Positions 51,249-63,993 of a DNA stretch of 64,000 nt are shown here, one piece after another (position 1 is the stretch's first letter; every line of letters starts with the position of its first letter). The stretch is from Thalassomonas viridans (GTDB lineage Bacteria; Pseudomonadota; Gammaproteobacteria; Enterobacterales; Alteromonadaceae), in contig NZ_CP059733.1 of assembly GCF_000948985.2 (NCBI RefSeq), forward strand, positions 1,798,001-1,862,000, read 5' to 3'. The notes below the pieces were generated by a model. It was given only the letters and a program-made list of their open reading frames with translations. It made no database searches and was not told the DNA's origin. Position numbers and translations under genes: made by a program.

Positions 51249-54191
51249 TCAGGTAATGTCCATCAACGGTATGCTGATGGCCAGCTGACTGCCTTTGTCC
51301 TGCTTATTAAAGATATGGACAGAGGCATTGTATTTCTTGGCGATTTTGCGGGTGTAATACATGGCCATATTGAAATTAATATTGTTGTTAAAGTTAAGGA
51401 AGCTGTTGCCGTCGTCACTGATATTTATCCACAGCTTACTTTTTACCTCTTTAAGCGCCATGGTAAAGTTGCGGCCGTTGCCGTTGAGTACGGCGGAAGT
51501 AATTGACTCGTAGATGATTTTGTAAACGTCGGACTGCATTTCATAGGCCAGCGAGGTGTCGTTCAGCTCTATGATGTTGTTCAGGTTAATATGATACTTC
51601 TGTTGCAGGTAATCACTGAAAAACGGTAGAGCCACTTCCAGGGAGTTGCCGTAAAGGCCGTCGGGCTCTTTAGCGTCGACATTGCCTTTTAACTCGTCAA
51701 TGCTTTGCTGGATAATGCTTCTGGACTTCTCCAGGCGGGCTTCATCCGTTTGCTTTAATAATTCCAGCACGTAAGCAAGGTTGCGGCTGGCATTTAGAGC
51801 GGCTTTACCGCGGTTTTTAATGTCGGTGCTTAAAATGCGGTGAATTTTGGCGATGGATCTCGCGCGCATAAACAGCAGCCAGAACAGCTTGGTAAGGACA
51901 ATTAAAAAGATCACGGCATAGACGATTCTCATTGTTAAGGTCCAGTACCAGGGATAGGCAACATTGATGGTGGTGTAGGCTTTATGGCTGCTCCACTGGC
52001 CGACGCTGTTGGTGCCCATGATTTCTATGTCGTATAAACCGGAGCTTAGGCCGGTCAAGGTGATTTGATGACCGTAGACCTCGTTCCAGTTGCTGTTATT
52101 TATACGGTATTTGTACTGCTTCTCTTGTCCAGGACGATAGTCTAAGCTAGCTACCTCTAAAGTGATAACATCATTTGGAGTATCAACATTAATAGTTTTA
52201 TTGATGATAGAATTTGTCCCTGAAACGATAGTTTTACTGATATAAACTTTAGCGTTAAAAGTTTTTTCATCAACTAGTGGCAGTTCTAAGATACCTCTTG
52301 AGTGTGGGATGTATATGGTGTTTTTTACTTGTAGAGGAGTACTGGTAAAAGATAATAATTCAGTATCTGGCACCATTGTTATCTGATAGTCGCTAGGGTT
52401 AATGCGATAAAGCCCTGGGTTTGCGGGGGCCCAAATTTCACCGTTGATTACTTTTAGGTTGTAAAAGATTATTCCCGATGCAAATTTAGATATTAGTTCA
52501 CCCTGACGGTTAAAAACAAAAATACCGCCTCCCATCGTTGCAACAAAAATTTTATTGTCCGCTAATATCAGGGAACCGACTTTACTGCTAGTTGGATTAG
52601 ATATATTTCTTATTGTACGGGCTTTACTGTTATATATGTCTAAGCCTGCAGCTGTGGTGATCCATATTTCCCCATTATCCAGTGGTAATATGCCGATAAC
52701 TTCTAAAGAACTCAGACCGCTTCCTTCGCCTAACTGTTGAATTACCTTTTGTTGTTGAATATCAAAAATAAGGAGTCCGTTACTGTCAGTACCAATATAA
52801 AGTAAGTTATCTTTCTTTACGATGTTTAATAAAATCAGATTGTTACCTTGAAAGTTGACTTTTTTCAGTTGCCTGTTTTGGCTTTGGTATCGCCATAAAC
52901 CATCAAAAGTAGTCAAATATAAATCATCATCCACTGTGACCATGGAATAAATTATTTTACCTCTTTTGGTGAATGCCGTATTAATGTCGTCAGGTAAAGA
53001 TTGAGTTAACTGATTAATAGTTGAATCACTAGTCGGATGTTTTTTTAATACATCATTTCCACGATATAAACCTTGACCGTAGCTACCAACAATGAGCTGG
53101 TTGTTTAGCATTTCAAGTGAGAACGCATCAAACTGGCTATCAAAGATTAGTGAATGGTTAACCAAGGTTTTTTCTATTAGTTGATATATCCCAGAATTGC
53201 TAATGATCCAAAGAACACCTGTATTATCGTGCAACATGGTATGAGTATATTGTGGTTCTAATTCGGGAAATTCATGTGTTAATAATGTAAGAGAAAATGT
53301 TTGATATTTGTTTATTTTTCCTTTGTCATTAATGGTAAAAAAAGTTTTGCCATTAGTTTTTGTATCGGGAGCAGATGCAGCACTCCCTGGAGTGATAGCA
53401 TGAATTGTTTCATTGATTGTTATGCTATGGGTTTGTCCGTTATCGGCAAAATAAATAAGTTTATCTTTAGTGGCGACAGCTAAGCCTTCGGCCACTGAGT
53501 TAATCGCATTAACAGGTTGTCCAATAATGTTAATAACTTCGTTTTCTTTAATTTGGAATAAACCATCGTTAGTCGAAAAATAAAGGTGTTTTTTAGTAGC
53601 AACTAAATCATGCAACTGAATGTTACTTGCAATAATGCTAGTTTCTGAACTGCTAGTGTTATAACGGTATAAATTATCCGGAGATTTACCGTAGGCGTAA
53701 TAGCTATTTTGAAATCTTAGTGATTTATAGATGGTGGGGCTTTGGGTATCGATATTTATGGGAGTTGTTTCGCCTGATAAAGGATCTAATTCCCATAACC
53801 CATTATTTTCTGTTGAAATAAGTATTTTGTTAGCTGTTTTGATTACATTGTGAGCGTGGCTAAAGGGTAAGGGCCAATAGTTATTATTATTTGAAAAAGT
53901 AATGATGTTTTTGCCATCAAATCTTGTTACGCCTTGGCGGCTAGCCAGCCAGATATAGCCCTTGCTATCTTGAGTTAATGATTTTACATTCACTAGATGC
54001 TCTAACTCAGGAATACTTTTTGCTGAAACAACAAGAGTTAAGGAAGCATAAGTTATTAGCGTGCAAAGTAAGGCTTTTATTAGATGGCTAATTTGAAATT
54101 TCTCTGAGAAATTTTTGATAAATTTAATCACAACTGAAAACTTATTAAATAAAAAATGCACACAGAAGGCTTCCTGCTCGTTATTATCCAT
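51249..54191 (-). CDS. Reg_prop/Y_Y_Y sensor with degenerate histidine-kinase end
   Basis: A 980-residue membrane protein: N-terminal hydrophobic segment (about 40-60), a two-component-regulator propeller (repeats such as DSKGYIWLASRQGVTRFDGK, DNGEIWITTAAGLDIYN), a Y_Y_Y domain (YKYRINNSNWNEVYGHQITL, GLYDIEIMGTNSVGQW), a transmembrane helix (IVYAVIFLIVLTKLFWLLFM), then a kinase-like region. In the region where the H-box should be there is DIKNRGKAALNASRNLAYVL with no His; the ATPase part keeps NISDDGNS (partial G1) but no GxGLG. It is probably a pseudokinase or a signal transducer without phosphorylation. No response regulator is adjacent. Confidence 0.75.
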   Translation of the reverse strand: MDNNEQEAFCVHFLFNKFSVVIKFIKNFSEKFQISHLIKALLCTLITYASLTLVVSAKSIPELEHLVNVKSLTQDSKGYIWLASRQGVTRFDGKNIITFSNNNNYWPLPFSHAHNVIKTANKILISTENNGLWELDPLSGETTPINIDTQSPTIYKSLRFQNSYYAYGKSPDNLYRYNTSSSETSIIASNIQLHDLVATKKHLYFSTNDGLFQIKENEVINIIGQPVNAINSVAEGLAVATKDKLIYFADNGQTHSITINETIHAITPGSAASAPDTKTNGKTFFTINDKGKINKYQTFSLTLLTHEFPELEPQYTHTMLHDNTGVLWIISNSGIYQLIEKTLVNHSLIFDSQFDAFSLEMLNNQLIVGSYGQGLYRGNDVLKKHPTSDSTINQLTQSLPDDINTAFTKRGKIIYSMVTVDDDLYLTTFDGLWRYQSQNRQLKKVNFQGNNLILLNIVKKDNLLYIGTDSNGLLIFDIQQQKVIQQLGEGSGLSSLEVIGILPLDNGEIWITTAAGLDIYNSKARTIRNISNPTSSKVGSLILADNKIFVATMGGGIFVFNRQGELISKFASGIIFYNLKVINGEIWAPANPGLYRINPSDYQITMVPDTELLSFTSTPLQVKNTIYIPHSRGILELPLVDEKTFNAKVYISKTIVSGTNSIINKTINVDTPNDVITLEVASLDYRPGQEKQYKYRINNSNWNEVYGHQITLTGLSSGLYDIEIMGTNSVGQWSSHKAYTTINVAYPWYWTLTMRIVYAVIFLIVLTKLFWLLFMRARSIAKIHRILSTDIKNRGKAALNASRNLAYVLELLKQTDEARLEKSRSIIQQSIDELKGNVDAKEPDGLYGNSLEVALPFFSDYLQQKYHINLNNIIELNDTSLAYEMQSDVYKIIYESITSAVLNGNGRNFTMALKEVKSKLWINISDDGNSFLNFNNNINFNMAMYYTRKIAKKYNASVHIFNKQDKGSQLAISIPLMDIT

Positions 54192-54381
54192 GCTTACAAT
54201 CTGAGAAGATTTTTAACAGATTACCATGTTAATGATTTTACTGGATAAAGTCGATTGCTTGTTTGACTCTCTAAAACTAGATGTATTCTACAAGTAAAAT
54301 GTGAACAAGTGAAAGTTTTGCTTATTAAAAGGAGTTTTTAGGCGACAAATTTTAAATTAGCCGCCTAACTGTGATTTAGCC

Positions 54382-54876
54382 CTAACCTTCAGTTATTGCT
54401 GGTGGTGGGGTAGGTCTAGGGGCATATGATGGTATTGGATCTGTTGGTGTATCTGGCTTATGATCTCTGTCTCCACAAGCTGCAAAAACTCTAGGTAATT
54501 CCCCTTCTTTTTTAGGGTGTTGAACTAATATATAGCTAGGTTTTCTTGGTGCATCTTTATTTTGCTTATTGAGCCAAGCATTTCGTAATGCGTTAGCAAA
54601 CTCTTTACTGTATTTTACTTCGAAAGCAGTTGCTGCCATTTCTACACCAAAATCATCTGTTAGTATCATGGCGTTGCCGTGATAACCACTGGTAGTGTCA
54701 AAGTCTATATCAACTGTTAATATATCATTGGCAGGTAAAATTAAATCTAAACGCATTTTAGCAATAACTGCACGATCAATTTTGGGCTTAAGGTTGGTAC
54801 GATTAGGTTTTTTGACTAAATCGTAGACTAGTTTAATATCATTACTGATAGTTTTTTCTTCAATTAAAGCAGACAT
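54382..54876 (-). CDS. Hypothetical protein, Pro-rich C-terminus
   Basis: A 164-residue protein (ATG 54876 after AAAGGGAAC; an upstream ATG at 54927 is less likely). Predicted beta-rich core (RLDLILPANDILTVDIDFDT, AMILTDDFGVEMAATAFEVK) and a Pro-rich tail (YAPRPTPPPAITEG). No family recognised. Third of three small genes downstream of the CadC-like gene on the same strand, 188 bp after the membrane protein. Confidence 0.6.
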   Translation of the reverse strand: MSALIEEKTISNDIKLVYDLVKKPNRTNLKPKIDRAVIAKMRLDLILPANDILTVDIDFDTTSGYHGNAMILTDDFGVEMAATAFEVKYSKEFANALRNAWLNKQNKDAPRKPSYILVQHPKKEGELPRVFAACGDRDHKPDTPTDPIPSYAPRPTPPPAITEG

Positions 54877-55064
54877 AATGTTCCCTTTAGGTAAACTTTT
54901 TATAAGTATAATAGTGAGCGCTAACAAATTTTTAACGCGCTCTAATTATAAAGGAAATATTAATTTTCGAGTATTAACTTTGGTAATAATGGATAATAAC
55001 TCGTAAATATTGGTGTCTTGAATATTCAGTTACAGTTAATAAATCAGGATTTTTACTGTTGTTA

Positions 55065-55400
55065 CTACACTTTGAAATCTGGATGTTTTTTACAATAATC
55101 ATGATAGCTTGCTTCGTTTCTATTCCATATATTTTGGCCAGCATAATAGCTAATGAAAAGAGCTAATAAACCGAAAGAAGTCGCATCTGCATAAATATAA
55201 CCAAACCAGTCTTTTGAATTGGTATCCGCTAAAGAAAAGCCAAATATACGCTTATAAGTTAACAGCATAATTACAATATACATTGGCAATCCGACCCATT
55301 TACCACCAAATACCAGGCTAAAGAGTAGCTTGCCTTGTTTACGTTTTTTTTGCCAAGAGAGGGCTTCATCCGATGTGAAAGGAAGAATCTTCTTTTCCAT
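55065..55400 (-). CDS. Small membrane protein (111 aa)
   Basis: Two hydrophobic helices (WVGLPMYIVIMLLTYKRIFG; ATSFGLLALFISYYAGQNIW) with charged ends; the N-terminus MEKKILPFTSDEALSWQKKR is cytoplasmic by the positive-inside rule. ATG 55400 has GGAGT upstream. No family recognised. It follows the secreted-protein gene by 67 bp and is probably cotranscribed. Confidence 0.65.
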   Translation of the reverse strand: MEKKILPFTSDEALSWQKKRKQGKLLFSLVFGGKWVGLPMYIVIMLLTYKRIFGFSLADTNSKDWFGYIYADATSFGLLALFISYYAGQNIWNRNEASYHDYCKKHPDFKV

Positions 55401-55467
55401 AGGTACTCCATTACAATATGAGGTAAGGGGCTATTTATTTAGCCCCTATATAGTTTAAATATCAATG

Positions 55468-56367
55468 TTAAGGGCAGGGAACATAAATGATCTGGCCGTT
55501 AGAAAATGTACGATAACATTGGCCGCCACCGCCGGGCCGATATTCATAATCAATATTGCTCCCGCCTGTATTATTTCCGCCGTTGGAGCCGTTACCATCA
55601 CCTGATCCCCCGCTGATACTTGCAATATAAGAGGGGGAATAACTAGTTCCATTACGGATAACAGTGGTTATTTTTCCGCCTTTTAAAATTAAAATATCAC
55701 CTGCTTTAAGTTTACTTTTCGTGGGGCCTTTATATAACTCTCCCATAGCAACAGTTGTTACACCACCAGCGACCATAGTTGCTAACAGTTCGCTTCGGCT
55801 CATGCCTACAACGACTTTTATGATTACATCTGCAATTTTTGCTACAGGTAAAAAGGTAAGTGCGCCAACTGCAAAGTTTTGCTGTATTCTATTGCTCATA
55901 TTGGTACGGTCTATATCATCTTGTGTGACCGTATAACTCCATTCATAGCTATTCACAGCGTTTTGCAAGGATATTATATAAGGTTTCAAAGTACCATCTA
56001 TATCATTCCAAGCTTCACAGTCATAATCTCTATCATATTCGCATGATAGAGCTGCGTCCATAACATCAACTGCGCCGCTTTCCGCTTCTATTAATGGCTG
56101 TGAAGTAAGTGGGTTGGATGAAAGATGATTGGTATATTGTCCATAGGTAATTGAATTTACTTCGACTCCGGAGTCTGTAAATATGAATAACATATTTTCA
56201 TCATGTTGATAATCCTCTAAAGCTGTTACTTTTGTCACCATATCGTAGATATCATCGCATGCCTGACCACATTCAATAATTGATATTGGACTGTATTCAG
56301 ACGCCTGTAGAGATAGAGAGAAGCCAACTGTTAATGTCAGTAAAGAGAGTTTTTTTCCTAAAAACAT
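55468..56367 (-). CDS. Secreted hypothetical protein with Gly/Asn-rich C-terminus
   Basis: A 299-residue precursor with signal peptide (KLSLLTLTVGFSLSLQASE). The middle has hydrophobic segments (ALTFLPVAKIADVIIKVVVG; LATMVAGGVTTVAMGELYKG). The C-terminal 60 residues are Gly/Asn/Ser-rich (SGGSGDGNGSNGGNNTGGSN) before a short end CYRTFSNGQIIYVPC with two Cys. Family not recognised; the layout (helical hydrophobic middle, flexible glycine linker, small Cys-closed tail) resembles exported toxins only in general. Good AAGGAAT before ATG 56367. Confidence 0.65.
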   Translation of the reverse strand: MFLGKKLSLLTLTVGFSLSLQASEYSPISIIECGQACDDIYDMVTKVTALEDYQHDENMLFIFTDSGVEVNSITYGQYTNHLSSNPLTSQPLIEAESGAVDVMDAALSCEYDRDYDCEAWNDIDGTLKPYIISLQNAVNSYEWSYTVTQDDIDRTNMSNRIQQNFAVGALTFLPVAKIADVIIKVVVGMSRSELLATMVAGGVTTVAMGELYKGPTKSKLKAGDILILKGGKITTVIRNGTSYSPSYIASISGGSGDGNGSNGGNNTGGSNIDYEYRPGGGGQCYRTFSNGQIIYVPCP

Positions 56368-56461
56368 TTTATTCCTTTAAGTAATTTAATTGTTTTATGT
56401 TGAACATTTCTTGACGATTTTCGTCAGGAAAGAAATTAGCAACTGCTATTTTTATTAACAA

Positions 56462-56545
56462 GTTGGGAAAATGTTGTGACTTGGTTCTTTCTTGTATCTG
56501 ATTGTTTCTTTAGTTTTTTTTGTCAATGTTGTGAAAAGATTGGGA
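56462..56545. promoter_or_regulatory. Tandem 11-bp-spaced half-sites, cluster 1
   Basis: GTTGGGA (56462) and GTTGTGA (56473), then GTTGTGA (56528) and ATTGGGA (56539): two pairs, each with exactly 11 bp between repeats. Winged-helix regulators of the PhoB/CadC type bind such direct repeats. The same pairs recur at 59497-59609. Confidence 0.6.
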
Positions 56546-56652
56546 AATATTGAAAGATGTTTTTGATTGTTTATCGGATAATTTCTAGGCGCTGGGTAAT
56601 AAACTGAAAGCTATGTTGAAACTATAGCATTATTTATATTCAGAGTAAGAGA

Positions 56653-56760
56653 ATGACAGCTTTCGATCTTGCAATAGAGCTGAGCCGTCTTAAGTTATAT
56701 ACAGGAAACTGTCTTGGAACTAAAGAAGCACAGGCATTATTTGCTAAGGCGTCTATTTAA
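56653..56760 (+). CDS. Possible micro-protein (35 aa)
   Basis: ATG 56653 to TAA 56760 encodes MTAFDLAIELSRLKLYTGNC and LGTKEAQALFAKASI, a helical, mildly amphipathic peptide with one Cys. GAGTAAGAGA lies upstream as a possible ribosome-binding site. It overlaps the end of the CadC-like gene on the other strand by 24 bp and lies 108 bp after half-site cluster 1. Too short to be sure. Confidence 0.3.
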   Translation: MTAFDLAIELSRLKLYTGNCLGTKEAQALFAKASI

Positions 56761-59085
56761 ATCGGAAATTGTGATTTTACCTATATAGGTATTGGCTGTT
56801 TTATAATCATTCATCAATAAGCTATTGTGGTGAATAGTTATAAATAAAGTATTGGTATTCCCAATGTCGACTTTTTGTCTTTCTCCAGTAGCAAAGTCTA
56901 CTTTAATGACTTCTTTCTTTAAGGTTATACGGTAGATTGCATCATTTCCAACAGCCCAATCTAAGTTGTAGTCAAAATGAACATCAGGAAAATAATGATA
57001 TTTATTATTGAACTCCCAGTTATCATCTAACTGGTAAATACCCTTGCTACCGGTAGTAGATGCGAAGTAGCGTTCAGAACCATTATTACCACATTGACTA
57101 TGAATAGATGTGATCCCGGAAGCCAGGCGTTTGGCGGTTTGGGTATGAATATTTATTTGATCTAGATACCAGTTACCATTTTCTAGAACTGTAGTAAGAA
57201 TGTTGTCATTGGAGTGGCATAGCCAGGTAATATTTTTTACTGTTTCATTTGGATGGAAGACAGTTTGCACCTGCTTGGTTGGAATATTTAATACATATAA
57301 CTTGTCATCTCTAATAAATAAGATATTTTCACCATCGGCAGAAAAGCTAGACTGGTAAATGTAGGCTTTATCTTTAAAGTTGGTTAATTGTTGTAATTGG
57401 TCACCTTCTTTTAGCCAAATTTGCCTGTTCCCTGAACGTGTTGAAGAAAAAGCAATACGTTCTGTATTATTCAATTTGTAAAGAGCAGCCGAATGGTCCC
57501 TGAAACTGGAGGAAACCCAAGGAGAACTTAGTTTGTTATTTCCCAAATTTAAGAGATTAATATCTGCTATGTTGCCGAAGCCAAAAGTTAGTAATATTTC
57601 AGTGTCAGAATACACTAGTGGATACGCAGCATCGCTCTCATATTGATACAGTGATGTGTTTTCACCTGTGTAAACATTTATGGCGCTAAGTATTTTTTCT
57701 CTTTCTTCCAAATAAAATACATGGGTTCCGAATGGAGACCAGGCAATCTGATTAGCTAAAGTTGACTTATTAAGTAGTGAGTTGGTTTCACCGGTATTAA
57801 GCTCTAAAAGCATGATTGATTCTGAATGATCATCCGCGTAGCGTTTAAACGCCAGTTTTGTGCCATCGGGGCTTAAGCGTAGACCTGCATCTCCCTGGTA
57901 TTTTCCAGGGGGAGCAGTTATCGTTTCAACATAATGACTTTTCAGGTGATAACGTTTTATTAAAGCAGGCGGCTTATCATTATCTGCGGATGTATAGTAA
58001 AGCCAGTTTAGATCCGGGCTCACTGCTATACCTGTATTTGTCATATACGGTAAGTATGGGTTGCACTGAATAATTTCCTTTGAGTTAGACGTTGCTAAAG
58101 TTCGTTTAATGCTCACTTTTTTTATTGTGCAGTTATCCTGAATCATAGACATATAAAACAATTCATTGCCAGAGGGAGACCAATATGGGGAAATGCTTCC
58201 AGGCTCCAGGGCAATGCTTTGCTTTGTTTGAATGTCTTGTATCACAATTCTGGGACTGCTGGCATGATCGGCCTGGTGCGTAAAGGCCAGGAGGGCTTTA
58301 TCTGGTGACAATGATGGCGCATATTCCCAACCTTCTAAATAGGTCAAGGGTTCCTCTGGTACATCATGCTTAGTTAATATTTTTGGAGATGGCGTTACAG
58401 GCTGTGTTAACTGCCATAGTACAATAACTAATATCAGCGTTGCCAGTAGTGAGTAAAGTTTATAAAAAGGCTTGGTTAGCAGCCTTCTTTTGGGCTTGTT
58501 GCTGATATTTTTTACTACAAGACCTGTTATGGAGTCGTTATCAGTTTGATTGCTGACGGTATTGTTGGCATCAACAGTTACAAGTACTTCGGAGGTTTTA
58601 TCCTGAGCTTCTTCTTGTTCTACGGGCTTTATAGATTCATCAACTAAATATTCATCTGCTTGCTGGTCGGCTTTCGCTATAAATTCTTGTTTTGTTTCTT
58701 CTCCCTTTTGTACATGGTTGGCATTCGCTGCCGGGGGAGTATTTGTTGTTAATAGCTCGGTTCTGCTGAGGTATTCCACCCGGCACGTTAATGAATAACC
58801 CCGTTTTAGGTGGGTTTTAATAAAGTCATCCCGCTCGCCGCCCAGAATCTTGCGTAGCCTGGATATAGCAGAACTTATGGTGGTGTATTCTATACAGCGG
58901 TTGTCCCATACCTCTTGCATCAGCTGTTCGCGGCTGATTACCTGCGGGAGGCTTTCCGCTAAAAACACTAATAGCTTTACATACTTGGCTTCAAGAGGAA
59001 CAAAGGTATTGTCTTCTTTAATTAGATGGTTTTCGAGTGGATCCAGTATCCATTGGTTGAGCCTGATGAGCTTAGTGTTTTCCAT
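56737..59085 (-). CDS. CadC-like membrane transcriptional regulator with beta-propeller
   Basis: A 782-residue ToxR/CadC-type protein: N-terminal winged helix (LEAKYVKLLVFLAESLPQVI, TTISSAISRLRKILGGERDD), acidic linker, one transmembrane helix (about 207-226) and a periplasmic TolB/WD40-type propeller (WSPSGNELFYMS, LRLSPDGTKLAFKRY, WSPFGTHVFYLEE). It senses something in the periplasm and binds DNA from the membrane. Tandem half-sites flank the gene on both sides. Confidence 0.88.
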   Translation of the reverse strand: MENTKLIRLNQWILDPLENHLIKEDNTFVPLEAKYVKLLVFLAESLPQVISREQLMQEVWDNRCIEYTTISSAISRLRKILGGERDDFIKTHLKRGYSLTCRVEYLSRTELLTTNTPPAANANHVQKGEETKQEFIAKADQQADEYLVDESIKPVEQEEAQDKTSEVLVTVDANNTVSNQTDNDSITGLVVKNISNKPKRRLLTKPFYKLYSLLATLILVIVLWQLTQPVTPSPKILTKHDVPEEPLTYLEGWEYAPSLSPDKALLAFTHQADHASSPRIVIQDIQTKQSIALEPGSISPYWSPSGNELFYMSMIQDNCTIKKVSIKRTLATSNSKEIIQCNPYLPYMTNTGIAVSPDLNWLYYTSADNDKPPALIKRYHLKSHYVETITAPPGKYQGDAGLRLSPDGTKLAFKRYADDHSESIMLLELNTGETNSLLNKSTLANQIAWSPFGTHVFYLEEREKILSAINVYTGENTSLYQYESDAAYPLVYSDTEILLTFGFGNIADINLLNLGNNKLSSPWVSSSFRDHSAALYKLNNTERIAFSSTRSGNRQIWLKEGDQLQQLTNFKDKAYIYQSSFSADGENILFIRDDKLYVLNIPTKQVQTVFHPNETVKNITWLCHSNDNILTTVLENGNWYLDQINIHTQTAKRLASGITSIHSQCGNNGSERYFASTTGSKGIYQLDDNWEFNNKYHYFPDVHFDYNLDWAVGNDAIYRITLKKEVIKVDFATGERQKVDIGNTNTLFITIHHNSLLMNDYKTANTYIGKITISDLNRRLSK

Positions 59086-59234
59086 TACTTGTTATAATTA
59101 CTACTTTATTACTGCGTCAGGAAATTGCTTTTGAATTGAAAAGAAAAAATTAATTTTCGATTTATTGTAATGGTTTTATGGTTATTAATAAACATGGCGC
59201 CGGTGAGTATGACTTTTTTTCATGCACGAAAGTT

Positions 59235-59344
59235 GATTTTTTTCTTGATGAAATAAATCAAGAAAAAAATCCGGACCGCTGATAAGGAAACACGAAAAAC
59301 GTGTGGGCTGTGTTTCCCCTCTGCTTTAAACATCAGCGGCCCGG
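59235..59344. ncRNA. Structured segment, possible noncoding RNA or attenuator
   Basis: A perfect 15-bp hairpin GATTTTTTTCTTGAT / ATCAAGAAAAAAATC (59235-59249 and 59257-59271) is followed by CCGGaCCGCTGAT (59271-59283) pairing with ATCAGCGGcCCGG (59332-59344), which encloses GGAAACAC/GTGTTTCC (59286-59293 and 59310-59317). Nested compensating stems suggest a folded RNA. Strand cannot be told; no comparison was possible. Confidence 0.4.
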
Positions 59345-59496
59345 GACGGTAATTAAACTTCCGTAATCTGTTACACACCAGTGTCAAGTGTGTAACTTTT
59401 GCCTCTTGCTAAACCATTAAAAACGCTTTCTCAAGTTTGAACCTTGTGGTTCTGTTCGGCGGAAGAGAAGTTAACTGCTATTTTACTGCTGAACAA

Positions 59497-59609
59497 GTTG
59501 GGAAAAGGTTGGGAATTTGTGAAATACTTAACTTGTTGTTTTGTAATGATTTATCTTGTTGTAAAGTTTTGTTGTGAAAAGGTTGGGAAATGATGGGAAA
59601 AGGTTGTGA
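59497..59609. promoter_or_regulatory. Tandem 11-bp-spaced half-sites, cluster 2
   Basis: GTTGGGA at 59497 and 59508; then GTTGTGA 59571, GTTGGGA 59582, GATGGGA 59592, GTTGTGA 59603 with spacings 11, 10 and 11. The sequence before the first pair (AACTGCTATTTT then AACAAGTTGGGAAAA) also matches cluster 1. Ends 180 bp before the nuclease start. Confidence 0.65.
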
Positions 59610-59789
59610 CGCTTTTTTCCCTTTTTTTCGTACAAAAACGACGCCTTGTGAGCATGTTTCAGGTGCCGGTATAACGTGATTTACAAATGATTTGATGTTT
59701 GCCCGTAAAGCATTACGCTTAGTTTTGATAACAAGGCATTATGTTGTTTAGTGATGCAGGAATTTAAAATAATAAAAAGGAAGTTGTTT

Positions 59790-60518
59790 ATGACTCTGGA
59801 TGTCTCTAAACCTGAACTCCGTTATGGTTGCCCGGCGGCCGATCAAATTCTTTTCAACCGTTTTTATACTGTTGGTTACTCTTATTATTTCAGGCAGGCT
59901 AAATGGACGCTGGAAATTGTTGAGCCGGGCAAGCATATCAATGATGTTGACGATGATGTTACCCGGCAAAATAATTTTCGACCCGACTTCAGGCTGCCCC
60001 AGCGTTTTAGGGGAGACTTATCTGATTACCGGCGCTCGGGCTTTGACCGGGGTCACTTAGTTGCCAGCGCCAATCAGGACCAAACCGCTTTACAGAACTC
60101 GGAAACTTACTTGCTTTCCAACATGTCGCCGCAGGCCCCGCAGTTTAACCGTGGGATCTGGAAAGATTTGGAAGGCGAAATCCGGGCTAAAAACGACGAG
60201 CCGGATATTTATGAGACCTATGTGATGGCCGGGCCTATTTTTGATTTTGAACACCGCACGCGCTTTATCGGCCAGGCAGACAATAACGGCATTAAAATTC
60301 CAATTCCCAGCCATTTTTTCAAATGTGTGCTGGTAGAGCGGAAATCAGGCAAGCTGGAAATGTGGGCATTTGAGTTTGAGAATAAAGATCTTGATGGCAG
60401 GCCGGCTGACTTTGTGACTTCAACTTCTGCTATTGAGCAAAGGGCAGGGATTAATATCTGGCCGAACTTATTTGGTGATAATATTGAGGCTGAAAAGAAG
60501 CAGATTAATCGGTGGTGA
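59790..60518 (+). CDS. NUC-family DNA/RNA non-specific endonuclease
   Basis: A 242-residue nuclease with the catalytic DRGH (residues 86-89) in RRSGFDRGHLVASANQ and the Mg-binding Asn (about 120) in SPQAPQFNRGIW, as in Serratia nuclease and NucA. It should cut DNA and RNA. No signal peptide from ATG 59790 (AAGGAAG upstream); an in-frame ATG 59751 adds 13 basic residues that also are not a signal peptide. Secreted relatives are the rule, so the location of this one is unclear. Confidence 0.85.
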   Translation: MTLDVSKPELRYGCPAADQILFNRFYTVGYSYYFRQAKWTLEIVEPGKHINDVDDDVTRQNNFRPDFRLPQRFRGDLSDYRRSGFDRGHLVASANQDQTALQNSETYLLSNMSPQAPQFNRGIWKDLEGEIRAKNDEPDIYETYVMAGPIFDFEHRTRFIGQADNNGIKIPIPSHFFKCVLVERKSGKLEMWAFEFENKDLDGRPADFVTSTSAIEQRAGINIWPNLFGDNIEAEKKQINRW

Positions 60519-60654
60519 GATATCGCGGTGCGTTGACGGGAGAATTTCAGGTAGCACAGTGTTTCTGCCCTTCAGTTTACTTAAGTATGTTATAATTGCG
60601 GCTTAGTAATCTTTGTGATTAACTTTGATACATATAGATTAGTTTTGAGGTGTA

Positions 60655-60918
60655 ATGATGGAAACTAAAGTTATAACAGCCCATGTTCCGATATCATTAG
60701 CTGAAAAGGTTGATAATTTAGCTAATCGTTTAGAGCGCTCAAAAGCCTGGGTAATGAAACAAGCATTGGCTGCATGGGTTGAGCAGGAAGAAGAGCGTCA
60801 CCGTTTGACACTCGAAGCGATAGCAGATGTTGATGAAAATAATGTTATAGATCATCAGTCAGTGCAGGCATGGGCTGAAAGTTTAAGTTCAGATACTCCT
60901 TTACCGACTCCCCGTTGA
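60655..60918 (+). CDS. RHH-type antitoxin
   Basis: An 87-residue protein with a ribbon-helix-helix start (TKVITAHVPISLAEKVDNLA, RLERSKAWVMKQALAAWVEQ) and an acidic tail that should wrap the toxin. ATG 60655/60658 both possible, GAGG upstream. Its stop overlaps the toxin start by one base. Confidence 0.88.
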   Translation: MMETKVITAHVPISLAEKVDNLANRLERSKAWVMKQALAAWVEQEEERHRLTLEAIADVDENNVIDHQSVQAWAESLSSDTPLPTPR

Positions 60919-61193
60919 TGGAAATTAAATGGACGATTAAATCCCTTTCAGATTTAAATCGTCTGTTTGAATTCTTGGCGCCGGTAAATAAACAAGCTGC
61001 GGCCAAGACCATACAATCCCTTACCCAGGCACCTACCCGAATCATTCATCAACCTCGCATTGGTGAGAGGCTTGATGAATTTGAGCCAAAAGAAGTTCGC
61101 CGACTGTTAGTTGGGCATTATGAAATGCGTTATGAATTGAGGAATAATACCTTATTTATACTTCGAATTTGGCATACCCGGGAAAGAAGGTAA
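60918..61193 (+). CDS. RelE/ParE-type toxin
   Basis: A 91-residue basic protein with the ParE/RelE pattern: MEIKWTIKSLSDLNRLFEFL, then EVRRLLVGHYEMRYELRNNT and LFILRIWHTRERR. Translation start (60918) shares the A of the antitoxin TGA, so expression is coupled. Target (gyrase or ribosome) cannot be told by sequence alone. Maintains the accessory block or acts in stress. Confidence 0.88.
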   Translation: MEIKWTIKSLSDLNRLFEFLAPVNKQAAAKTIQSLTQAPTRIIHQPRIGERLDEFEPKEVRRLLVGHYEMRYELRNNTLFILRIWHTRERR

Positions 61194-63114: not shown

Positions 63115-63189
63115 TGGCTGGGGTACAAGGATTTGAACCTTGGAATGACGGGATCAAAACCCGCTGCCTTACCGCTTGGCTATACCCCA
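63115..63189 (-). tRNA. tRNA-Gln(UUG), copy 1
   Basis: 75 nt including encoded CCA; acceptor TGGGGTA/TACCCCA; anticodon TTG. Identical to the three other Gln copies. Confidence 0.97.
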
Positions 63190-63243
63190 ACTGAGATATG
63201 TACTCTAACTTGCTCACATTATTTTGCAACTTTTACAAGAAAG

Positions 63244-63318
63244 TGGCTGGGGTACAAGGATTTGAACCTTGGAATGACGGGATCAAAACCCGCTGCCTTA
63301 CCGCTTGGCTATACCCCA
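63244..63318 (-). tRNA. tRNA-Gln(UUG), copy 2
   Basis: Same 75-nt sequence as copy 1 with encoded CCA and anticodon TTG. Confidence 0.97.
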
Positions 63319-63368
63319 ATAATGTAAAACCTGTTCTCTTGCTTAATGTTATTTGATTGTGATTGAAA

Positions 63369-63453
<85 letters not shown>

Positions 63454-63489
63454 ATATCTACAACTTAATACATTAAATGCTAAGAGTAA

Positions 63490-63566
63490 TGGTGGCTACA
63501 CCGGGATTTGAACCTGGGACCCCATCATTATGAGTGATGTGCTCTAACCAGCTGAGCTATGTAGCC
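63490..63566 (-). tRNA. tRNA-Met(CAU), elongator type
   Basis: 77 nt, starts GGCTACATAGCTCAGCTGG and ends TGTAGCCACCA; anticodon CAT in CACTCATAATG. The G1-C72 pair shows that it is not the initiator. Confidence 0.95.
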
Positions 63567-63605
63567 TTAACAAGTACCTTGATAGTAACTAACAAGGATT
63601 TGGAC

Positions 63606-63631
63606 AAAAAAAATCGACCCGTTAGTCGATT
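63606..63631 (-). terminator. Internal terminator of the tRNA cluster
   Basis: AATCGAC and GTCGATT stem with a T-run on the minus strand, between tRNA-Gln copy 3 and tRNA-Met. It divides the cluster into two units. Confidence 0.75.
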
Positions 63632-63658
63632 CATTCCCAAGGCTTACGCCTGAAAATG

Positions 63659-63733
63659 TGGCTGGGGTACAAGGATTTGAACCTTGGAATGACGGGATCA
63701 AAACCCGCTGCCTTACCGCTTGGCTATACCCCA
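63659..63733 (-). tRNA. tRNA-Gln(UUG), copy 3
   Basis: Same 75-nt sequence as copies 1 and 2; anticodon TTG; CCA encoded. Confidence 0.97.
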
Positions 63734-63761
63734 ACAGTATTTCATTTATCTTATTGATAAA

Positions 63762-63846
<85 letters not shown>

Positions 63847-63918
63847 ATTTTGATTAGTTTCATAAAAATGAAATAATCTGGTAGTTATTACATTGTACTT
63901 TCAGGTAAAAGGAGAAAG

Positions 63919-63993
63919 TGGCTGGGGTACAAGGATTTGAACCTTGGAATGACGGGATCAAAACCCGCTGCCTTACCGCTTGGCTATACCCCA
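63919..63993 (-). tRNA. tRNA-Gln(UUG), copy 4
   Basis: Same 75-nt sequence; anticodon TTG; CCA encoded. The operon may continue beyond the window. Confidence 0.97.

Follow-up and report, generated by a model that had tools for sequence, protein, structure and literature searches.

Conserved tandem 11-bp repeats beside a ToxR/CadC-like membrane regulator of Thalassomonas, candidate operators linked to peptide export loci

Results

The stretch analyzed here, called the window throughout, comprises 64,000 nucleotides of the Thalassomonas viridans genome (contig NZ_CP059733.1, positions 1,798,001 to 1,862,000; coordinates below count from its first letter unless a genome or locus handle precedes them). 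On its reverse strand lies reg1 (56737..59085), a gene for a ToxR/CadC-like one-component regulator of 782 amino acids (aa), and both intergenic regions that border it, region 1 (56368-56736) and region 2 (59086-59789), carry tandem heptamers of the GTTGKGA type, which we treat as candidate operators. The heptamers begin at 56462, 56473, 56528, and 56539 in region 1 and at 59497, 59508, 59571, 59582, 59592, and 59603 in region 2, and they group into an A box and a B box in each region, all on the forward strand. In region 1, the A box (56462..56479) reads GTTGGGA-N4-GTTGTGA and the B box (56528..56545) GTTGTGA-N4-ATTGGGA, both with an 11-bp step. In region 2, the A box (59497..59514) reads GTTGGGA-N4-GTTGGGA, and the B box (59571..59609) contains four heptamers at steps of 11, 10, and 11 bp, the 10-bp step from 59582 to 59592 being the only departure from 11 bp within the boxes.

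Such an arrangement is not expected by chance. When heptamers with at most one mismatch each were paired at an 11-bp step and compared with 1000 dinucleotide shuffles of each region, region 1 yielded two pairs (shuffle mean, 0.009) and region 2 three (shuffle mean, 0.018), and in neither case did any shuffle reach as many (0/1000). Across the 64-kb window, the tandem pattern with up to two mismatches occurs six times, five of them in regions 1 and 2 and one at an unrelated site (53836), whereas shuffled versions average 1.34 and never exceed 4. An earlier sequence-only reading had reported the repeats in both intergenic regions along with flanking sequence common to the two; the repeats lie where it placed them, and the shared flanks, AACTGCTATTTT and AACAAGTTGGGAAAA, were recovered as well. 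Part of the region 2 B box also falls within a weak terminator-like stem-loop with a T run (59595-59620, forward strand), probably a coincidence.

The N terminus of the Reg1 protein matches the OmpR/PhoB-type winged helix (PF00486, E = 3.8e-14), and its nearest solved structures, at profile positions 2-108, are those of ToxR (7nmb, E = 2.8e-15, the closest), CadC, and PhoB (1gxp, E = 3.2e-11). In the structural model, the winged helix (about residues 5-113) is followed by a low-confidence linker (114-206), a predicted transmembrane (TM) helix (208-227), and an all-beta periplasmic region (about 235-779), of which residues 235-495 are TolB-like; the periplasmic part is accordingly modeled with a TolB-type propeller fold. 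A single hydrophobic segment was found in each of the 28 homologs scanned. The predicted architecture, a winged helix and one TM helix ahead of a periplasmic domain, is thus that of the ToxR/CadC type. The best NCBIfam match is the CadC equivalog model, at 67.8 bits and therefore under its 400-bit cut-off, which does not support assignment as a CadC ortholog proper, and the Pfam hits include no PhoB-type receiver domain, the protein beginning with the winged helix itself.

We scanned four Thalassomonas genomes, namely, that of the window (G000; 7.95 Mb in two contigs), T. actiniarum (G001), T. sp. RHCl1 (G002), and T. haliotis (G003), for the tandem pattern and for a reversed-pattern control. 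The sequence-only reading had regarded a motif frequent in the genome without link to these genes as the outcome that would count against it; instead, the matches track three regulator paralogs, reg1, reg2, and reg3. The window genome contains 25 matches at up to one mismatch (control, 0) and 32 at up to two (control, 16), the 25 being divided among the window sites (5), the reg2 locus (1), the reg3 locus (4), a repeat array (12), and isolated positions (3). The three congeners contain 5, 7, and 9 matches (controls, 0, 1, and 0). Taken together, the four genomes have 46 matches against 1 in the control, with 28 no more than about 16 kb from a regulator paralog, 12 in the array, and 6 isolated. 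In 36 other relatives, the matches at the same threshold equal the control (13 and 13); 33 of these have some homolog at E ≤ 0.001, and one, G023, has a member of the regulator subfamily defined below, with a different repeat. In six sequence sets, 11 bp was the most frequent spacing of heptamer pairs in each (6, 6, 15, 5, 11, and 13 pairs, versus 2, 3, 0, 3, 3, and 3 at 10 bp). All 10 exact occurrences of the A-box 14-mer lie at known operators. Two natural controls are furnished by the congeners: the reg2 locus of T. sp. RHCl1 has neither the radical S-adenosylmethionine (radical-SAM) operon nor the operator, and T. actiniarum, which has only reg1-type copies, has its matches at the reg1 locus save one that is isolated.

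Sixteen operator regions from the four genomes were compared, 12 of which were aligned; shared by the aligned operators are an A box of the AACAAGTTGGGAAA-GTTGTGA type, a block resembling TTGTTTTATAT, and a B box. Read on the complement of the GTTGKGA strand, 12 of the 16 regions have CCCAAC (or CACAGC) followed directly by TTGTnn, 17 or 18 bases, and TAnnTT. This composite was counted in 18 Thalassomonas stretches (336 kb), picked around these loci and the isolated matches, and occurs there 13 times (reversed control, 0), comprising the 12 and one further match (L099:11794) that we take as chance, with no repeat nearby at up to three mismatches. In region 1, the element spans 56433..56461 on the reverse strand (TTGTTA, 56461-56456; 17 bases; TAATTT, 56438-56433), facing the gene of a 299-aa secreted-looking protein and ending 65 bp from its ATG. 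In region 2, it spans 59468..59496 on the same strand (TTGTTC, 59496-59491; 17 bases; TAACTT, 59473-59468), facing reg1 and ending 382 bp from its ATG. Both match the sigma70 consensus weakly, and by its position and conservation the element may be a weak promoter; its conservation could also derive from shared descent of duplicated operators.

Five stretches around isolated matches (L100-L104; three in G000 and one each in G001 and G002) contain no second repeat at up to one mismatch and no composite element, and such sites were rejected as additional regulon members; this check covers five of the six, the sixth being G003:C1:6315452. In the array of the window genome (G000:C1:756213-756700; L061:8213-8702), a 42-bp unit is repeated 11.5 times, and most copies include the tandem operator. 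The array contains no composite element and is located near two transposase-like open reading frames (ORFs) recognized by eye. We considered an M16 peptidase as its conserved target and rejected it: the stretches examined upstream of the M16 peptidase orthologs in G002 and G003 (88-89% identical) have no match at up to two mismatches. A role of the array as a sponge for the regulator is possible.

Operators are present at all three paralog loci. The reg3 locus comprises genes for an M16 peptidase, HlyD, double-glycine peptides, a C39-peptidase ATP-binding cassette (ABC) exporter, and reg3 itself, with operators before HlyD and before the exporter. Peptide leaders of the MRELxxxExxxxxGG kind number three in the window genome (L063) and two each in G002 and G003 (L097 and L098). 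The combination of double-glycine leaders, C39 exporter, and HlyD typical of class II microcin export loci is thus found at paralog loci and not in the window, and the peptide products are, judging by these gene contents, putatively antibacterial. At the reg2 locus of the window genome, the operator precedes a radical-SAM gene whose best model is the YydG-type epimerase (72.7 bits; cut-off, 300). Also encoded there is a secreted-looking protein of 329 aa with a weak SdpC-family match (19.5 bits; cut-off, 99.2). At the reg1 locus of the congeners, one operator precedes the regulator pair and another lies between the nuclease gene and a gene for an FG-GAP/Ig protein of about 967 aa; in G002, a 1708-aa RHS-repeat gene comes next. 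Where a single operator separates reg1 from the nuclease in the window, the three congeners (L094-L096 and L065-L067) have two copies with an RHS-type island between them, and the island may have been gained or lost by recombination of one copy with the other.

The association is not limited to Thalassomonas. We searched 246 genomes of a family that we take to be Colwelliaceae, its named records being Colwellia, Thalassotalea, Thalassomonas, and one metagenome-assembled genome labelled Alteromonadaceae. The profile matched at E ≤ 1e-40 in 34 of them, namely, the four Thalassomonas, nine genomes that define a subfamily (E below 1e-130; next best, 5.9e-102), and 21 with weaker homologs. The regulator adjoins HlyD and a C39 exporter (70-79% identical) in eight of the nine subfamily genomes; the exception is G058, whose examined stretches yielded neither gene and where a related 11-bp repeat lies upstream of other genes. 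The exporter is also present in NORP201, taken from a named record. None of the four weaker-homolog genomes examined (of the 21) gave a match to HlyD or a full-length match to the exporter. Seven of nine such loci examined (G043, G163, G023, G115, G083, G143, and NORP201) have a related 11-bp repeat upstream of HlyD, the exporter, or both, at a distance of 156-221 bp from the start codon as taken from the tblastn match. A 17-mer representing it, CACAACATTAATACAAC, has five exact matches in 21 genomes, all five at subfamily loci; one mismatch adds three more, one of them at a subfamily locus, and the 12 genomes lacking the subfamily have none at either stringency. In these distant species, the ACAAC-to-ACAAC step is most often 11 bp, with 18 matches (control, 4) against 11 matches for the runner-up step, and seven less redundant loci give 11 matches at that step against 8 at the next highest, so that this spacing scan is by itself weak support. 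In G043, one exact CACAACATTAATACAAC site precedes genes for ATP-grasp maturases resembling MvdC and MvdD (354.7 and 385.8 bits; cut-offs, 425 and 475), at a locus with a precursor-like ORF that contains PFFxxFL and GG; PFFARFL is described as a microviridin motif (PMC8939145). In an unrooted tree of the regulators, the C39-linked proteins are split from five weaker homologs by a branch with support of 87/85, and reg1, reg2, and the G058 copies fall among the C39-linked ones, which suggests that exporter control is the older role of the regulator.

Next to reg1 in the window, the gene of the 299-aa secreted-looking protein (55468..56367, reverse strand) is the likely first target. The protein has no Pfam hit and 10 relatives besides itself. 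Downstream of it on the same strand are genes for a small protein of 111 aa (55065..55400), membrane-like by eye, and a 181-aa ORF (54382..54927) that is near reg1 in the congeners too. Three relatives of the 299-aa gene in T. haliotis (L182, L184, and L186) each lie near an ORF of 107-118 aa, on the same strand in two and on the opposite strand in L182; these ORFs are membrane-looking and by eye akin to the 111-aa one, pointing to a recurrent two-gene unit. Beyond region 2 is a DNA/RNA nonspecific endonuclease gene (59790..60518, forward strand; Endonuclease_NS, E = 8.6e-41). The 299-aa gene and reg1 are likely targets because a conserved promoter-like element directly borders each A box on the side toward them; a 35-aa ORF on the other side of its operator and the nuclease downstream of the region 2 B box have no such element facing them, and both were rejected as main targets. 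Control of the nuclease is possible but unproven, because an operator neighbor is kept in three congeners. The regulon proposed by the sequence-only reading, a membrane sensor acting through PhoB-type 11-bp repeats on the secreted-protein cluster or the 35-aa ORF and on the nuclease, is therefore retained in part: comparative genomics sustains it and carries it beyond the window, the secreted cluster is a likely member, the 35-aa ORF is an improbable main target, and the nuclease is unproven.

The reg1 leader contains a strong hairpin followed by a U run (59230..59352, reverse strand), terminator-like and conserved in the four Thalassomonas. Its folding energy is -49.1 kcal/mol (z = -7.3), and it is found in each genome at this locus only; the terminator scan does not list it, since it exceeds the loop limit of that scan. 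An Rfam search of window positions 54000-61000 gave three matches, all under gathering scores. The hairpin might serve to attenuate reg1, or it might mark where a small RNA ends. Near the window end, seven tRNA genes are clustered (63115-63993; four Gln, two Leu, and one Met).

Discussion

The association between operator and regulator is real and conserved, of the ToxR/CadC kind, and tied to peptide export, as comparison across genomes indicates. We consider it probable, at roughly three chances in four, that the regulator is a dedicated one-component membrane activator of peptide export loci and that the repeats are the operators of reg1 and its two paralogs. Operator linkage and conservation suggest that Reg1 may bind the target promoter DNA. 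Its cytoplasmic winged helix, of the PhoB/ToxR type, would bind as head-to-tail dimers on the 11-bp direct repeats. The A box runs right up to the -35-like hexamer of the putative target promoter, an arrangement like that of a class II activator, and cooperative binding would come from the B box farther upstream. The hexamers are weak and therefore fit a promoter that requires an activator. The periplasmic TolB-like propeller region would sense a periplasmic or peptide signal. The regulon would then include HlyD, the C39-peptidase ABC exporter, double-glycine peptides, and radical-SAM or ATP-grasp maturases, together with the regulator itself, which would thus be autoregulated. Within the window, the 299-aa secreted gene and the small gene paired with it would belong to the regulon as well.

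Several observations weigh against this reading. Four of the 16 operator regions, the three Thalassomonas C39-exporter regions and the 42-bp array, lack the composite element, and the contact of A box and hexamer was part of the search pattern by which it was counted in the other 12. A sigma70 consensus scan of regions 1 and 2 in both directions lists no promoter (shuffle means, 1.7 and 1.4), which weakens the promoter label for the element and slightly lowered our confidence in the reading. The A-box 14-mer alone, at up to one mismatch, is not enriched in the four genomes (23 matches; control, 29). The 299-aa gene was rejected as a conserved regulon member, since its three relatives in T. haliotis all lack an upstream operator at up to three mismatches. 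In the window genome, reg3 (L064:2684-2807) lacks a start codon where one would normally be and adjoins an insertion-sequence transposase gene, so that its 5' end may be disrupted; reg1 or reg2 might control its exporter in trans. Outside the genus, the search for an operator near the exporter came up empty at two of the nine loci, G121 and G204, both from one genus. At up to two mismatches, CACAACATTAATACAAC is only about twofold enriched in the nine subfamily genomes (43 matches; control, 20), compared with 14 against 11 in the 12 other genomes. The G043 and G143 sites are not independent, because the 17-mer was chosen from them, and G115 and G083 are close relatives that add little independence.

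The same layout might be read with the opposite sign, the regulator binding the repeats to repress and a signal releasing it to turn the genes on. A repressor would fit an A box that abuts the -35-like hexamer just as well, and self-repression is frequent among autoregulated genes, yet weak hexamers are what one would anticipate at an activator-dependent promoter. Among related proteins, ToxR has been termed an activator, repressor, or coactivator (PMC8517210), and against repression stand accounts of CadC as the activator of cadBA (PMC5430869) and of ToxR as a key activator (PMC7496328). We regard repression as unlikely, if the most serious competitor. Somewhat less probable still is a hierarchy in which a different PhoB/OmpR-type factor, such as a response regulator, uses the repeats as its operators and governs both the regulator and the peptide loci from above. 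Direct repeats of 11 bp are typical of the OmpR/PhoB fold class, and autoregulated regulators often carry sites for further factors; however, the motif follows the regulator subfamily, standing at control level in the 36 other relatives (13 and 13), and exact CACAACATTAATACAAC is confined to subfamily loci (5/5 in 21 genomes). That the repeats are a mobile or satellite-like element spread in Thalassomonas with no regulatory role, as the 11.5-copy array near two transposase-like ORFs and the operator copies flanking the RHS-type island in three congeners might suggest, is very improbable in view of the conserved geometry, the same gene types downstream, and the related repeat at orthologous loci in other genera.

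Within the activator reading, a more specific proposal is that the TolB-like propeller detects a peptide, either one that the cell itself exports or a competitor's bacteriocin, and switches on synthesis and export of a microcin or other ribosomally synthesized and post-translationally modified peptide via the 11-bp-repeat operators, with the lineage-specific 11.5-copy array possibly serving as a titration sponge. TolB itself is bound by colicin peptides. We offer this proposal tentatively and would give it low odds.

Comparison with known systems places the regulator among familiar types without identity to any. CadC of Escherichia coli is likewise a one-component membrane regulator with an N-terminal winged helix, a single TM helix, and a periplasmic sensor; its target is lysine decarboxylase. 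Unlike CadC, Reg1 has a TolB-like periplasmic part (as modeled), and the neighboring candidate targets of its group are peptide export genes. CadC sites are described as AT-rich, head-to-head TTAxxxxT (PMC5430869), whereas the repeats here contain G+C and run head to tail at 11 bp. ToxR of Vibrio cholerae has the closest solved winged helix (7nmb) and a direct-repeat operator, but differs in core sequence, in step (10 bp as written, against 11 bp here), and in targets. The periplasmic part of ToxR is also much smaller than that of Reg1. The ToxR operator at ompU is given as a direct repeat, TNAAA-N5-TNAAT, at -51 to -37, just upstream of the start (PMC7496328). PhoB is related through its DNA-binding domain (1gxp) and differs in that Reg1 has no Pfam receiver hit and has a predicted TM helix. 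The pho box consists of head-to-tail 11-bp direct repeats at the promoter edge, and PhoB is a soluble, phosphorylated response regulator.

The paralog loci resemble class II microcin and other C39-peptidase exporter loci in their double-glycine leaders, C39-peptidase ABC exporter, and HlyD. What triggers microcin production is, according to a review, unclear and variable; its section on regulation names iron, EnvZ/OmpR (for MccPDI), nutrients or growth phase, and quorum sensing, with no dedicated ToxR/CadC-type regulator in that list (PMC10233263). The lanthipeptides viridisin and thalassomonasin are known from Thalassomonas (PMC11433236), whereas the peptides here are of the double-glycine kind. 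A literature search over titles and the openings of abstracts, with subscription journals mostly outside its coverage, found no such system.

Because the regulator subfamily, the operator, and the export loci can be traced together, regulator, operator, and signal are directly testable. The operator type described here would add head-to-tail 11-bp sites for ToxR/CadC-type regulators to the head-to-head sites of CadC, and the DNA motif can be used in hunting for unannotated peptide loci. If the propeller does respond to peptides, the system would amount to a peptide-sensing circuit, made of one protein, that controls bacteriocins. More generally, the joint occurrence of regulator subfamily, operator type, and peptide export loci across the genus groups g1, g21, and g41 indicates a little-known route by which bacteria may control their weapons.

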